Source of the DNA: an uncultured Succiniclasticum sp.
Lineage (GTDB): Bacteria; Bacillota; Negativicutes; Acidaminococcales; Acidaminococcaceae
NCBI GenBank assembly: GCA_905235335.1
Contig: CAJOKZ010000006.1
Location: 1-64,000 of the forward strand
DNA length: 64,000 nucleotides
Reading direction: 5' to 3'
Shown: piece by piece, positions 14,124 to 36,432 of the stretch
Position numbering within the stretch: position 1 is the stretch's first letter
How the letters are laid out: each line of letters opens with the position of its first letter
Program-made: the position numbers and the translations under genes
Notes under the pieces: generated by a model
What the model saw: the letters and a program-made list of their open reading frames with translations, nothing else
Database searches by the model: none
What the model was told of the DNA's origin: nothing

Positions 14124-14285
14124 ACCGTTTCCCTCCTCCGTAACATTTTATGTGAAAATCGAACACGCCTGCCAAATGCAGGGCGGCATAGCCATAAGGA
14201 ATCATCACGCAGACACAACCACATGGCCACAGGCGGGATCATCCCGGATGCAGGACCGCGGTTCCCGGTTGTCCCGCAACAGAAA

Positions 14286-14316
14286 AAGGACATTCCTCGT
14301 TCAGGAATGCCCTATG
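14286..14316 (-). terminator. Terminator downstream of cold-shock gene
   Basis: Minus strand GGGCATTCCTGAACGAGGAATGTCCTTTTTCT. Confidence 0.75.
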
Positions 14317-14352
14317 GTTCATGCGAAGTAATTGTTGATACGTTAAAGCAGA

Positions 14353-14553
14353 TTATTTTACAGGAACGACGTTAGCAGCCTGTTCGCCGCGGCTTCCTTC
14401 CACCACGTCGAATTCAACGGTCTGGCCGTCTTCCAGAGTTTTGTAACCGTCAATCTGGATAGCAGAGAAATGTACGAAAACATCGCCGCCATCTTCACGT
14501 TCAATAAAACCATATCCTTTTTCTGCATTAAACCATTTTACTTTGCCTGTCAT
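14353..14553 (-). CDS. csp: Cold shock protein (CspA family)
   Basis: [33 protein letters not shown]... Confidence 0.97.
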
Positions 14554-14572
14554 GTCACGGGCCTCCTAAAAA

Positions 14573-14614
14573 AATACTTTTGCCGGCTCGTTTACCCGAG
14601 CCGACAAAAGTATT
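14573..14614 (-). promoter_or_regulatory. Terminator-like hairpin in the csp 5' leader (candidate attenuator/thermosensor)
   Basis: Minus strand AATACTTTTGTCGGCTCG-GGTAAA-CGAGCCGGCAAAAGTATT then TTTTT-AGGAGG (SD) and ATG. Confidence 0.7.
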
Positions 14615-14724
14615 ATATGACAAAAAAGAAAAATATGCAAGCAAAATATTTACAGAAAATTCCCCTTAATTATAATAAGCATAGTATACTGCATGTAATC
14701 GCATTATTTCGTAATACTTAAGTA

Positions 14725-31102: not shown

Positions 31103-32104
31103 ATGAAAGAACTAATACGCATGGAAGGGATTAGCAAAAAATTCGGCGAGAATCTCATTATCCCTACTTTGGACCTTACGATTAATGACGGAGAATTTGT
31201 TACGCTGCTGGGTCCCTCGGGCTGTGGCAAGACCACGCTGCTTCGAATCCTGGCCGGTCTGGACAACCCCACTACCGGCCGTGTCATCCTTGACGGTCAG
31301 GACATCACCAACCTGCCGCCTTATAAACGCAATGTCAACATGGTATTCCAGAATTACGCCCTGTTCCCCCATTTGACCGTAACACAAAATATTAATTTCG
31401 GTCTGAAAATGAAGGGCGTACCCGAAAACGAGGCGAAGGAGCGCATTAACCAAGTGCTATACCTAACCCAGCTGGAAGAACTGCGGGATCGCTATCCTGC
31501 CCAAATGTCCGGCGGGCAGCAGCAGCGAGTAGCCATCGCACGGGCTCTGGTAAACAGTCCCAAAGTATTATTGCTGGACGAACCTCTGGGCGCTTTGGAC
31601 TACCAGCTCCGGAAAAAACTGCAGCTGGAACTGAAGATCCTGCAACGGAGCCTGGGCCTTACTTTTGTCTTTGTAACACACGACCAGGAAGAAGCCCTTA
31701 CCATGAGCGACCGTATCGTCATTATACACAATGGCGTCATCCAGCAGGATGGAGACCCCAATGGCATCTACCACCATCCCCGAAACACCTTTGTAGCCCG
31801 TTTCATCGGAGAAAGCAACTTCTTTGATATTGGCAGCGATACCTTCGCACTGCGTCCGGAAAAGCTAAACCTGTGTCCGGAAGAAGAAGAAAACACCAGC
31901 CATCCGGAGCCGAAATTCTTCGGCACGGTAACGGACGTCGTATTCTACGGAACCATCGACAAGGTTTTTGTCCGTCTTGATAACACGAACCAGGTCGCCA
32001 TCGCGTACCAGTATTTTGATGATGTTAACCGCTGGAAGACCGATGACCGGGTGGGCATTTGGTGGTATGACCGGGACGGCGTCAAAGTTGAGAAAGAATC
32101 GTGA
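31103..32104 (+). CDS. potA: Spermidine/putrescine ABC transporter ATP-binding protein
   Basis: [48 protein letters not shown]-like C-terminus; followed by potBCD. Confidence 0.94.
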
Positions 32105-32140: not shown

Positions 32141-32998
32141 ATGAAGAACGGTAAATTACTCGTTGCTCCTTCCATGCTGTGGCTGGGAATTTTCTTCGTA
32201 ATTCCCATGCTTATCGTTGTAGCTGTGTCCTTTGCCAGCCGTACCCCCTACGGGCAGGTTGTCTTTAACTGGACCATCGCTAACTACATACGTTTCCTGG
32301 AGCCCTTGTATCTTTCCATATTCGCACAAACCCTGCTGACAGCCCTGATCACCACGGTAGTGACCATCCTCATGGGATACCCGCTGGCCTATTACATCGC
32401 CCAGCTGCCCAAGCGCTGGCAGCAGCCGGGGCTGATTCTCTGCATGATCCCTTTCTGGATCAACTTCCTGATCCGGTCCTATGCTTGGGTCATCATCCTG
32501 CGGGCCCAGGGCGTCCTGAACACACTTTTACTGAAGGCAGGCCTTATTGAACAGCCGTTGCAACTGCTATATAATGGAGGAGCTGTTATGCTGGGCATGA
32601 TCTACTCCCTGCTGCCCTTTATGATCCTTCCAATTTATGTTTCCATCGAACAGCTAGATCGTCGGCTGCTGGAAGCCGCTTCCGACCTGGGAGCCTCTCC
32701 CTTCACCGCCTTCCGGAAAATCACCTTGCCGTTGACCATGCCCGGCGTAGCCGCCGGTACTATCCTAGTCTTCATCTCGTCCCTGGGCATGTTCGTAGTG
32801 CCGGACGTAATGGGCGGTGCCAAGTCTGCCCTGGTGGGCAACCTAATCCAGAATCAGTTCCTGGCAGCCCGTGACTGGCCCTTCGGGTCAGCTTTATCCA
32901 TCGTGCTTGCAATCCTGTCACTGATTCTGATTATCATGTATTACCGTGCTATTCAGGCACAAAACGGAGGTGCGGGAAATGCAAAAAACATGGCGTAG
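32141..32998 (+). CDS. potB: Spermidine/putrescine ABC transporter permease PotB
   Basis: Permease EAASDLGASPFTAFRKITLPLTMPGVAAG. Confidence 0.93.
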   Translation: MKNGKLLVAPSMLWLGIFFVIPMLIVVAVSFASRTPYGQVVFNWTIANYIRFLEPLYLSIFAQTLLTALITTVVTILMGYPLAYYIAQLPKRWQQPGLILCMIPFWINFLIRSYAWVIILRAQGVLNTLLLKAGLIEQPLQLLYNGGAVMLGMIYSLLPFMILPIYVSIEQLDRRLLEAASDLGASPFTAFRKITLPLTMPGVAAGTILVFISSLGMFVVPDVMGGAKSALVGNLIQNQFLAARDWPFGSALSIVLAILSLILIIMYYRAIQAQNGGAGNAKNMA

Positions 32999-33773
32999 TC
33001 ACGTAATGTTAGCTTATTCACTGGCCATTCTGGCATTTCTGTATGTGCCTCTCGTCATCCTGGCCATGTATTCTTTCAATGATTCCCGTATCAATGCAGT
33101 GTGGACAGGCTTTACCCTGAAATGGTACGAGCATCTGTTCAACAACCGACGGGTGCTGGAGGCCCTCATCAATACACTGATCATCGGCTTTGCCTCCACT
33201 ATCGTTTCCACCAGCCTGGGAACCATCGCCGCTATCGCCCTGCACCGATATAAATACAAGATGCAGAACTTTATCAACGGCATGGTGTATCTGCCCATTC
33301 TAATCCCGGAGATTGTTATGGGTCTGTCCCTGCTTGTCCTGTTTTCCCAGGCACAGATTCCTCTGGGCAAGGTATCCCTGATTCTGGCCCATATCACCTT
33401 CTGCCTGTCCTTTGTGGTCATCACGGTAGGCGCCCGGCTGGACGGTATGCGCACCGAATATGAGCAGGCCGCCAGCGATTTGTACGCCACACCGTGGCAA
33501 TGCTTCCGCTATGTGACGCTGCCACTGGTTATGCCGGGTATCGTAGCCGGCGCCCTCATCGCCTTCACCCTGTCCATCGATGATTTCGTCATCAGCTTCT
33601 TCGTGGCCGGCCCCAACTCCACCACCTTGCCGCTGTACATCTATGCCATGGTGAAGCGTGGCATCTCGCCGGAGATTAATGCGCTTTCCACTCTGATGAT
33701 GACAGTGGAGATCATTCTGGTACTGCTGGCCGAATGCCTGCAGCCCAGCCACAAGGCCAAGGCGAAGAATTGA
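32946..33773 (+). CDS. potC: Spermidine/putrescine ABC transporter permease PotC
   Basis: Permease EQAASDLYATPWQCFRYVTLPLVMPGIVAG; overlaps potB; internal start at MQKTW plausible. Confidence 0.92.
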   Translation: MLFRHKTEVREMQKTWRSHVMLAYSLAILAFLYVPLVILAMYSFNDSRINAVWTGFTLKWYEHLFNNRRVLEALINTLIIGFASTIVSTSLGTIAAIALHRYKYKMQNFINGMVYLPILIPEIVMGLSLLVLFSQAQIPLGKVSLILAHITFCLSFVVITVGARLDGMRTEYEQAASDLYATPWQCFRYVTLPLVMPGIVAGALIAFTLSIDDFVISFFVAGPNSTTLPLYIYAMVKRGISPEINALSTLMMTVEIILVLLAECLQPSHKAKAKN

Positions 33774-33840
33774 TACGTTTCTTTCAGGTTTCCCGGCATC
33801 GCATCTGCGGAAGGCATACCTACGCTGCAATGTCGGACCT

Positions 33841-34050
33841 GGGATATTTTTACTGCCTGTTTCGCAGCAACGGCTGCGACAGTATACATGCGGTGTGACA
33901 TAGCACCGCCCGGGGCCTTTGCCGCCCTAATTACACGAAAGTGCCGGTCAGTTGCCCTTTTCGGGTCAGGTTCCCGGACTTTCAAAACTATTCTGGCTTA
34001 TTGGTGGTGCTATCCCGGCTGCCAATATGGAGTAAAGGAGGAGTTTTTAT
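33841..34050 (+). promoter_or_regulatory. Candidate structured leader RNA upstream of potD
   Basis: Multiple strong inverted repeats: CGCAGC-AACG-GCTGCG; GCGGTG/CACCGC; ATAGCACCGCC/GGTGGTGCTAT (11 bp); GAAAGT(G)CCGG/CCGGACTTTC; then SD and potD ATG. Confidence 0.5.
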
Positions 34051-34053
34051 AAA

Positions 34054-35133
34054 ATGAAAAGGATTTTTGCTCTGTTATTCTGTTCCCTGCTGTTGATTCT
34101 TACCGCCTGCGGAGGTCCGGAAAAAAAGCCTGCCGAGCCACAGAAAAAAGCGGAAAAGGCGGAAGCACAGCAAGTACTAAACCTGTTCAGCTGGGCTGAC
34201 AATTTTGACCCTGAGGTATTGGCGGATTTCGAAAAGAAATTCAACTGTAAGATTAACTATGACGTATTCGCCAACAACGAAGAACTTTTGGCAAAGATTC
34301 AGGCGGGCGGCGCCCGGTATGACCTGATCCAGCCAAGTGATTACATGGTCACCACCATGTTAAAGCTCAAGCTGCTCGAAGAACTGGACATGAGCAGAAT
34401 CCCTAATGCAAAGAACCTGATCCAGGATCTTCAGGCACCTGCCTATGATCCAACCGGCAAACACTCCGTAGTATATACCTGGGGCATCACCGGTATCGGC
34501 TATAACAAAAAGTACGTTAAGACACCGCCCACTTCCTGGAATGACCTGTGGAATCCGGCCTATAAAGGCCGCGTAGTGCTGCTGAACGATGTCCGGGAGG
34601 TCATTAGCTTTGCCATGAAGAAGAATGGACATTCCCTGAACAGCGTGGATCCGAAGGATCTGGCCGAGTGCATGAAAGATTTGCGGGCCCTCTCGCCTAA
34701 CATCCTGGCCTATGATACCGATACCATCAAGCAGAAATTCATCGCGGAAGAGGCCTGGATCGGTACCATCTGGAGCGGCGATGCCTATTTCAGCTTCAAG
34801 GAAAACAAGAATATCGGCTTCGTGGTTCCCAAGGAAGGAACCGGTATTTGGGCCGACTGTTTTGCAATCCCCAAAGGGGCCAAGAACAAGAAACTGGCTG
34901 AAGACTTTATCAACTATCTGTACGATCCGAAAGTCAGCGCCAAAAACTATGAATACATTGGTTACAACGATCCCAACCTGAAAGCGGCTCAGTATCACAG
35001 CGAGGAATATAAGAACGATCCGATCCTGAAAACCGCCAGGGACTATATCAAAAACTCAGAATGGACCGATGATGTAGGCGATGCCATTGCACTGTACGAC
35101 CGTTGCTGGACTGAGTTGAAGACCGGTAAGTAA
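34054..35133 (+). CDS. potD: Spermidine/putrescine-binding lipoprotein PotD (copy 1)
   Basis: Lipobox LILTACGG; LNLFSWADNFDPEVLADFEKKFNCKINYDVFANNEELLAKIQAGGARYDLIQPSDYMV. Confidence 0.94.
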   Translation: MKRIFALLFCSLLLILTACGGPEKKPAEPQKKAEKAEAQQVLNLFSWADNFDPEVLADFEKKFNCKINYDVFANNEELLAKIQAGGARYDLIQPSDYMVTTMLKLKLLEELDMSRIPNAKNLIQDLQAPAYDPTGKHSVVYTWGITGIGYNKKYVKTPPTSWNDLWNPAYKGRVVLLNDVREVISFAMKKNGHSLNSVDPKDLAECMKDLRALSPNILAYDTDTIKQKFIAEEAWIGTIWSGDAYFSFKENKNIGFVVPKEGTGIWADCFAIPKGAKNKKLAEDFINYLYDPKVSAKNYEYIGYNDPNLKAAQYHSEEYKNDPILKTARDYIKNSEWTDDVGDAIALYDRCWTELKTGK

Positions 35134-35167
35134 CGACATTCGTTTCAAATGTTTTTCAATTAAATAC

Positions 35168-35205
35168 ATGTCCGGGCTGTATCTGTTCTATTACAGCCCG
35201 GACAT
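35168..35205. repeat. Perfect 14-bp inverted repeat between the two potD genes
   Basis: ATGTCCGGGCTGTA-TCTGTTCTAT-TACAGCCCGGACAT. Confidence 0.8.
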
Positions 35206-35337
35206 CAAGAACGAAACAATCTTAAATTTACAACAGGCATACCATTGCCTGTCAAAATCAGGAAATTGCTAACGGCCTTACGGGGCGGCATTTCCAAAAC
35301 GGTATAAAAACAAATAAAGAAAAGAGGTTGATACGAT

Positions 35338-36432
35338 TTGAAAAAAAACCGGAACCACATCTTCTTGATGATTCTACTTGTAGTATGCTTCACTTTCGCG
35401 TTGGCAGGCTGCGGCGGAAACGGCGATAAAAAAGCAGCGGCACCGGGGGAACCCGCCAAACAGGGCAAACAGGTGCTCAATATCTACAGCTGGGCCGATT
35501 ATTTTGATCCCCAGGTACTGGCTGAATTTGAAAAAGCCAACAACTGCCGTATCAACTACGATGTGTATTCCAACAACGAGGAACTTCTGGCCAAGATGCA
35601 GGCCGGCGGCGCACAGTTTGATATTATCCAGCCCTCTGATTACATGGTCACCACCATGATACACCTGAACATGCTGGAAAAACTGGATCACAGCAAGCTG
35701 CCCAATATTGAAGGCCTGGTCGACAGCCTTAAGCATCCTGACTATGATCCGAAACAAGAGTTTGCCATCCCCTACGTCTGGGGCATTACCGGCATAGCCT
35801 ATAATAAAAAGTTTGTGAAAGACCCTATCACAAGTTGGGCTGACCTTTGGAAACCGGAATACAAAGGCCATGTGATCCTGTTGAACGATAACCGGGAAGT
35901 GTTCAGTTTGGCACTGAAAAAGATGGGAAAATCTAATAACAGTACAGACCCGAAGGAAGTAGAAGCAGCTTATCAGGAACTGAAAAAGCTAAGCAGCAAT
36001 GTAATGGCCTATGACACGGAAAACAACAAACAGAAGATGATCGCCGAAGAAGCCTGGATCGCCCAGATGTGGAGCGGCGACGCTTCCTTCTGCAACATCG
36101 ACAATCCCAATATTGATTTTTGTGTACCCAAAGAAGGTACCCTGATTTGGGCGGACAATATGGCAATTCCCAAGGGCGCAAAGAACAAGGAACTGGCGCT
36201 GAAGTTCCTGAATTATATCTACGATCCGAAGATCAGCGCCCGGAATTTTAACTATATCCGTCTTCCGAACGCCAACGGAAAAGCGATTCCCATGCAGAAG
36301 AAGGATATCGTGGAAAGCCCCATCCTGAAAAAAGCCAACGGGCAAGCAGACAAAGGCGAGTGGCTCCACGACATCGGGAATGCGATTACGATGTATGACA
36401 AGTTCTGGACTGAGTTGAAGACAGGAAAATAA
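35338..36432 (+). CDS. potD: Spermidine/putrescine-binding lipoprotein PotD (copy 2)
   Basis: Lipobox ALAGCGG; LNIYSWADYFDPQVLAEFEKANNCRINYDVYSNNEELLAKMQAGGAQFDIIQPSDYMV; clear paralog of copy 1. Confidence 0.94.
   Translation: MKKNRNHIFLMILLVVCFTFALAGCGGNGDKKAAAPGEPAKQGKQVLNIYSWADYFDPQVLAEFEKANNCRINYDVYSNNEELLAKMQAGGAQFDIIQPSDYMVTTMIHLNMLEKLDHSKLPNIEGLVDSLKHPDYDPKQEFAIPYVWGITGIAYNKKFVKDPITSWADLWKPEYKGHVILLNDNREVFSLALKKMGKSNNSTDPKEVEAAYQELKKLSSNVMAYDTENNKQKMIAEEAWIAQMWSGDASFCNIDNPNIDFCVPKEGTLIWADNMAIPKGAKNKELALKFLNYIYDPKISARNFNYIRLPNANGKAIPMQKKDIVESPILKKANGQADKGEWLHDIGNAITMYDKFWTELKTGK

Follow-up and report, generated by a model that had tools for sequence, protein, structure and literature searches.

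What occupies the 280 nt that separate potC from potD in a polyamine transport operon? The operon lies in a window of 64,000 nt (the whole stretch of DNA analysed) from a Succiniclasticum-group rumen bacterium of the Acidaminococcaceae (genome G000, 2.08 Mb). An initial annotation proposed that the whole gap is a cis-regulatory RNA with mutually exclusive helices, setting the level of PotD relative to PotABC. Here, this vaguely bounded 'possible riboswitch' is narrowed to a ~60-nt element with exact base pairs in rumen succinate users.

The coordinates confirm the layout first described, with potA, potB, and potC closely packed and potD1 behind the 280-nt gap. A further gap of 204 nt separates potD1 from potD2, a paralogue 58% identical to it. 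Both NCBIfam and PDB searches identify the pot products as spermidine/putrescine transporter proteins, most scores lying under the equivalog cut-offs; the potD1 product matches PotD of PDB 1pot/1poy at 3e-66. The closest named relatives of potD are from Succiniclasticum ruminis DSM 9236, uncultured Succiniclasticum, and rumen 'Selenomonadales'/Acidaminococcaceae MAGs. The potD1–potD2 gap (35134-35337) contains a hairpin, ACAGGCATACCATTGCCTGT, that is nearly identical in the closest relative, G001 (ACAGGCATACCGTTGCCTGT), and, near its start, a long perfect hairpin, GTCCGGGCTGTA..TACAGCCCGGAC.

Every helix named in the initial annotation is present in the 280-nt gap (Table 1). Taken as a set, the helices of the gap are not above chance in number or length. 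With G–U pairs allowed, 15 helices reach 8 bp or more, against 12.8 in dinucleotide shuffles (P = 0.37); the longest helix measures 11 bp, against 10.8 (P = 0.5); and Watson–Crick helices of at least 6 bp number 9, against 6.6 in shuffles (P = 0.24). When the whole gap is folded, the plus strand does somewhat better than shuffles (z = −2.80) and the minus strand less so (z = −1.89). TATTGG/CCAATA is the only one of the named helices that is kept across the genus. CGCAGC/GCTGCG recurs in G001 only, and the 11-bp, GGGATA/TATCCC, GCGGTG, and GAAAGT helices show no conservation in relatives. We rejected the 11-bp helix and GGGATA/TATCCC as functional elements, since they are at chance level in shuffles and missing from G001. 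The proposed 280-nt switch is thus not supported: its competing helices are at chance level and the 5′ ~220 nt of the gap cannot be aligned in relatives.

Table 1 Features of the pot operon and the potC–potD1 gap (window coordinates; for helices, the first position of each arm)
Feature	Position	Strand	Remarks
potA	31103-32104		
potB	32141-32998		
potC	ends 33773		start inside potB
Unconserved spacer, potC to leader element	33774..33986	+	no match in relatives; occurs once in its own genome
Second small element, hairpin TCGCAGC-AACG-GCTGCGA	33854..33884	+	23/31 identity to closest relative G001
Conserved potD leader element	33987..34056	+	5′ CTGGCTT box, stem-loop, Shine-Dalgarno, A/U spacer, ATG
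Conserved box CTGGCT (CTG[G/T]C..), 5′ of stem	33993..33998	+	aligned in 13 genomes
10-bp stem, 5′ arm (TATTGGTGGT)	33999..34008	+	every cell paired; 4 pairs changed on both sides
Apical loop (GCTATCCCG)	34009..34017	+	
10-bp stem, 3′ arm (GCTGCCAATA)	34018..34027	+	
Shine-Dalgarno AAGGAGG	34035..34041	+	12 nt before potD ATG; invariant in 10 genomes
potD1	34054..35133	+	lipoprotein-type spermidine/putrescine-binding protein; NCBIfam PotD NF007048 4.1e-72, under equivalog cut-off
Helix CGCAGC/GCTGCG	33863/33873		
Helix GCGGTG/CACCGC	33890/33904		
11-bp helix ATAGCACCGCC/GGTGGTGCTAT	33900/34003		contains one G–U pair
Helix GAAAGTGCCGG/CCGGACTTTC	33937/33974		
Helix GGGATA/TATCCC	33841/34011		
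Helix TATTGG/CCAATA	33999/34022		

Most of the named helices lie in the unconserved spacer. The 5′ ~220 nt have no match elsewhere in their own genome, in the loci of named relatives, or in phages, so we rejected a repeat or mobile-element origin. The PotD of G001 is 93% identical to that of the window, yet even in this genome the 5′ ~220 nt align only as background outside one 31-nt block, in which 23/31 positions are identical (300 shuffles reach 21 at most). The hairpin in this block, CGCAGC-AACG-GCTGCG (33862-33879 region), reads TACAGC-AATG-GCTGTA in G001, with two compensating changes; the 12 remaining genomes of the genus lack it. In G001, the counterpart of the block overlaps a promoter-like pair, TTTACA-16-TATATT. 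This small element could therefore be a promoter or operator, or else an mRNA hairpin.

The initial comparison with known riboswitch classes had seen no match, and Rfam scans of the gap at the gathering threshold and at a permissive one (E ≤ 5) likewise give none. Scans of three homologous loci return only tRNAs and chance matches, and no terminator-like site is found in 33600-35400. Elsewhere in the window, Rfam models match a cspA thermoregulator at 14283-14703 (88.5 bits, over the gathering score, in a Negativicutes genome), which may just reflect the cold-shock protein coding sequence within the model, and two group II intron domains (D1D4-1 and D1D4-3) on the minus strand at 1310-1572.

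Conservation is confined to the 3′ end of the gap. A DNA search of the genus finds relatives for gap bases ~216-280 only, in 9 of 13 other genomes and at 82-92% identity. The three most divergent genomes (G004, G009, and G010) carry a shorter version of the leader, recognized by inspection and, in G010, also by covariance model; in G007 (73% complete), the one genome left, there is no close potD. Over the last 61 nt before potD1, eight relatives share 81-92% identity with the window, and over the box plus hairpin (36 nt) 73-89%. In comparison, fourfold-degenerate sites of potD are 45-58% identical in eight relatives, and 61-nt upstream controls reach about 58% (potA) and 65-74% (potD2), indicating that the hairpin, and not the ribosome-binding site alone, is under selection. 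In the loop and the 3′ arm, the sequence itself is conserved, beyond pairing.

The stem-loop ends 7 nt upstream of the strong Shine-Dalgarno sequence of potD1. The spacing from this sequence to the ATG is 12 nt in 10 genomes and 6 nt in the three divergent ones; GGAGG-to-start spacings of 11-13 nt are common across the genus. A leader peptide (one frame reads ..YWWC..GCQY..) was considered and rejected, since alignment inspection reveals no conserved start codon or Shine-Dalgarno sequence for it and a 1-nt deletion in G002 and G006 shifts the frame relative to the 5′ box. An upstream in-frame ATG (..ATGGAGAAAAGGAGG..) was likewise set aside as not conserved: seven relatives have it in the potD frame, but the window reads ATG GAG TAA. 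At loci L003, L006-L010, and L035, this ATG lies right after the hairpin (MEKRRSFYKMKK..) and could lengthen the signal peptide.

The stem shows covariation. In a model-based alignment of 10 distinct sequences, 99 of 99 cells are paired, and 4 of the 10 pairs carry double-sided changes (A-U to G-C, C-G to U-A, G-C to U-G, and U-G to G-C), three of them from one divergent genome, G010. The covariation score exceeds those of all 500 shuffles and of all slid registers. The stem was counted on the model-based alignment, which leans towards structure, because MAFFT misplaced three divergent sequences; a ten-sequence alignment made without the model gives 100% pairing and one double-sided pair. The covariation rests on few independent events, since the comparison set comprises 10-13 closely related sequences. 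In G009 and G004, the stem is shorter and has one mismatch, and minimum-free-energy folding favours another hairpin. Covariation thus upholds the helix nearest the Shine-Dalgarno sequence.

The pairing also distinguishes the strands. All 99 cells pair on the plus strand and 70 of 99 on the minus strand, several of the plus-strand pairs being G–U. The stem fits the plus strand only, which points to plus-strand RNA, the potD mRNA, rather than to a DNA operator or an antisense RNA as its basis, and the minus-strand origin that had been left open is disfavoured. Accessibility of the Shine-Dalgarno sequence is predicted to be low in most sequences, owing to pairing with early codons and not to the conserved stem; this partial pairing is a weak hint of translational control independent of the stem.

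The element is restricted to one gene. In each of 10 Succiniclasticum-group genomes, covariance model R1 finds a single match (E ≤ 4e-18), located before potD1; an 11th genome gives a weak match. It finds no copy before other genes in the genus genomes and none on other polyamine genes. A search of 59 genomes of the family and 61 relatives gives noise only outside the genus; the best family match there (G074) has no pot gene nearby. The order, orientation, and location of potD1 and potD2 shift among species (34054-36432; L041-L048, L064), potABC staying together where seen. In particular, potD1 follows potC in G000, G001, and the divergent clade; potD2 precedes it in G005 and G011 and, as judged from contigs, in G012 and G008; in G003, it is on the opposite strand, facing the operon; it lies several kb from potD2 in G013; and it adjoins tRNA-Glu and tRNA-Gln genes in G002 and G006, with no potABC in the sequence examined. 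All relocated potD1 copies retain the leader element. Therefore, the element belongs to potD1 and not to the potC–potD junction. Tuning of PotD against PotABC within the operon, as first suggested, misses the mark, since potD keeps the element where it has left the neighbourhood of potABC. Where potD1 does not follow potC, the CTG box is preceded at 16-32 nt by a TATAAT box, pointing to a promoter of its own, and the relocated transcript would therefore start near the hairpin. At L004 and L005, an extra hairpin of differing sequence (AAACAAAC..GTTTGTTT and GCAAAAC..GTTTTGC) is located between the TATAAT and CTGGC boxes.

The potD leader is thus under purifying selection, its stem covaries, it is restricted to one gene of one genus, and it is retained after relocation. 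Of the proposed cis-regulatory RNA before potD, a conserved leader hairpin with no Rfam match stands and the full 280-nt extent does not. The last ~61-70 nt before potD1 probably form a cis-acting mRNA leader composed of the CUGGCUU box, the 10-bp stem-loop, and the strong Shine-Dalgarno sequence. Judging from sequence comparison, this genus-restricted hairpin probably acts in potD translation or mRNA stability. It would act post-transcriptionally, on translation initiation of potD and/or by protecting the 5′ region of potD mRNA, and would display the Shine-Dalgarno sequence next to a fixed hairpin. The conserved box and loop suggest a putative recognition partner, and the hairpin may be the site of a protein or a small RNA. 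PotD would thereby be kept at a level of its own that depends neither on the membrane subunits nor on which promoter is active.

It is doubtful that the leader is nothing regulatory, that is, a generic 5′ or intergenic stabilizing hairpin plus an ordinary strong ribosome-binding site kept through the closeness of the species. Hairpins are frequent in ABC-transporter operons, where differential expression is often achieved through them, and other ribosome-binding regions of the genus are fairly conserved too, as the potD2 control illustrates; however, the hairpin itself is well above the fourfold sites (73-89% versus 45-58%), and the loop and 3′ arm are kept in sequence. An operator, the TACTGG-N17-CCAGTA dyad, bound as DNA by a transcription factor acting downstream of the potD promoter is improbable. 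The hexamers are inverted, with half-sites about two helical turns apart, and in relocated copies the element is just downstream of the TATAAT box, but only the outer pairs are symmetrical as DNA, the inner stem needs the conserved G–U pairs of plus-strand RNA, and conservation runs on through the Shine-Dalgarno sequence and spacer. Nor is there a second genomic copy; a regulator with a regulon would usually have more than one site, although a local one need not.

A small polyamine-responsive RNA, of riboswitch or polyamine-modulon type, in which spermidine or putrescine shifts the fold of the stem and Shine-Dalgarno sequence and so adjusts PotD synthesis, is quite improbable. The element does sit on a polyamine-transport gene, the 12-nt distance to the AUG in the main clade recalls the 10-nt, polyamine-stimulated case of E. 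coli (PMC4405209), and an alternative helix, CUGGC/GCCAG, would use the 3′ arm of the stem. This helix, however, is complete in five of the 10 distinct sequences and incomplete in the other five; the leader has a single stem without a conserved multi-helix aptamer, no junction or pseudoknot being established; and searches of the genus and family find the element on no other polyamine gene. Moreover, a polyamine response is a minority reading because spacings of 11-13 nt are common in the genus and the spacing falls to 6 nt in the divergent clade; a polyamine riboswitch is unlikely. Highly improbable is its strictest form, in which the ~60-nt single-stem leader is a minimal, previously undescribed polyamine sensor whose stem/Shine-Dalgarno equilibrium would be shifted by spermidine or putrescine, giving feedback on the polyamine-binding protein. 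Our literature search on potD riboswitch leaders and on riboswitches in Succiniclasticum found no prior description. If polyamine-responsive, the leader would be a very small natural polyamine-responsive RNA on an uptake gene, the established spermidine riboswitch being on biosynthesis genes; if not, it would add to the leader hairpins by which ABC transporters adjust the amount of their binding protein.

The known spermidine riboswitch is a SAM-I variant with four stems (P1-P4) and a terminator, located on polyamine biosynthesis genes (Salvail et al. 2023, PMC10853860). Like the leader hairpin, it acts in cis as RNA and is associated with polyamine genes of Gram-positive-type bacteria (PMC10853860), whereas the potD leader has a single conserved 10-bp stem, no terminator, and, in place of a four-stem SAM-I-type aptamer, no SAM-I or other Rfam match at E ≤ 5. 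The mRNAs of the E. coli polyamine modulon (oppA, soxR, and emrR) have the Shine-Dalgarno sequence 10 nt from the AUG and are translationally stimulated by polyamines (PMC4405209). Here, too, it is unusually far from the AUG, at 12 nt, but it is at 6 nt in the divergent genomes, and long spacing is not rare in the genus. The E. coli mdtU-mdtJI leader, which controls mdtJI by a translated upstream ORF and Rho (PMC7815308), likewise precedes a polyamine transport gene, the role of the potD leader being putative; in contrast to mdtJI, the region before potD shows no upstream ORF whose start codon is conserved. With 5′ leader hairpins that stabilize mRNA or modulate translation, the potD leader shares a single stem-loop a few nucleotides before the Shine-Dalgarno sequence, conservation of sequence and structure above neutral, and retention with its gene. 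Unlike general leader hairpins, it keeps a specific sequence in its loop, 5′ box, and 3′ arm, and it belongs to the potD of one genus only.
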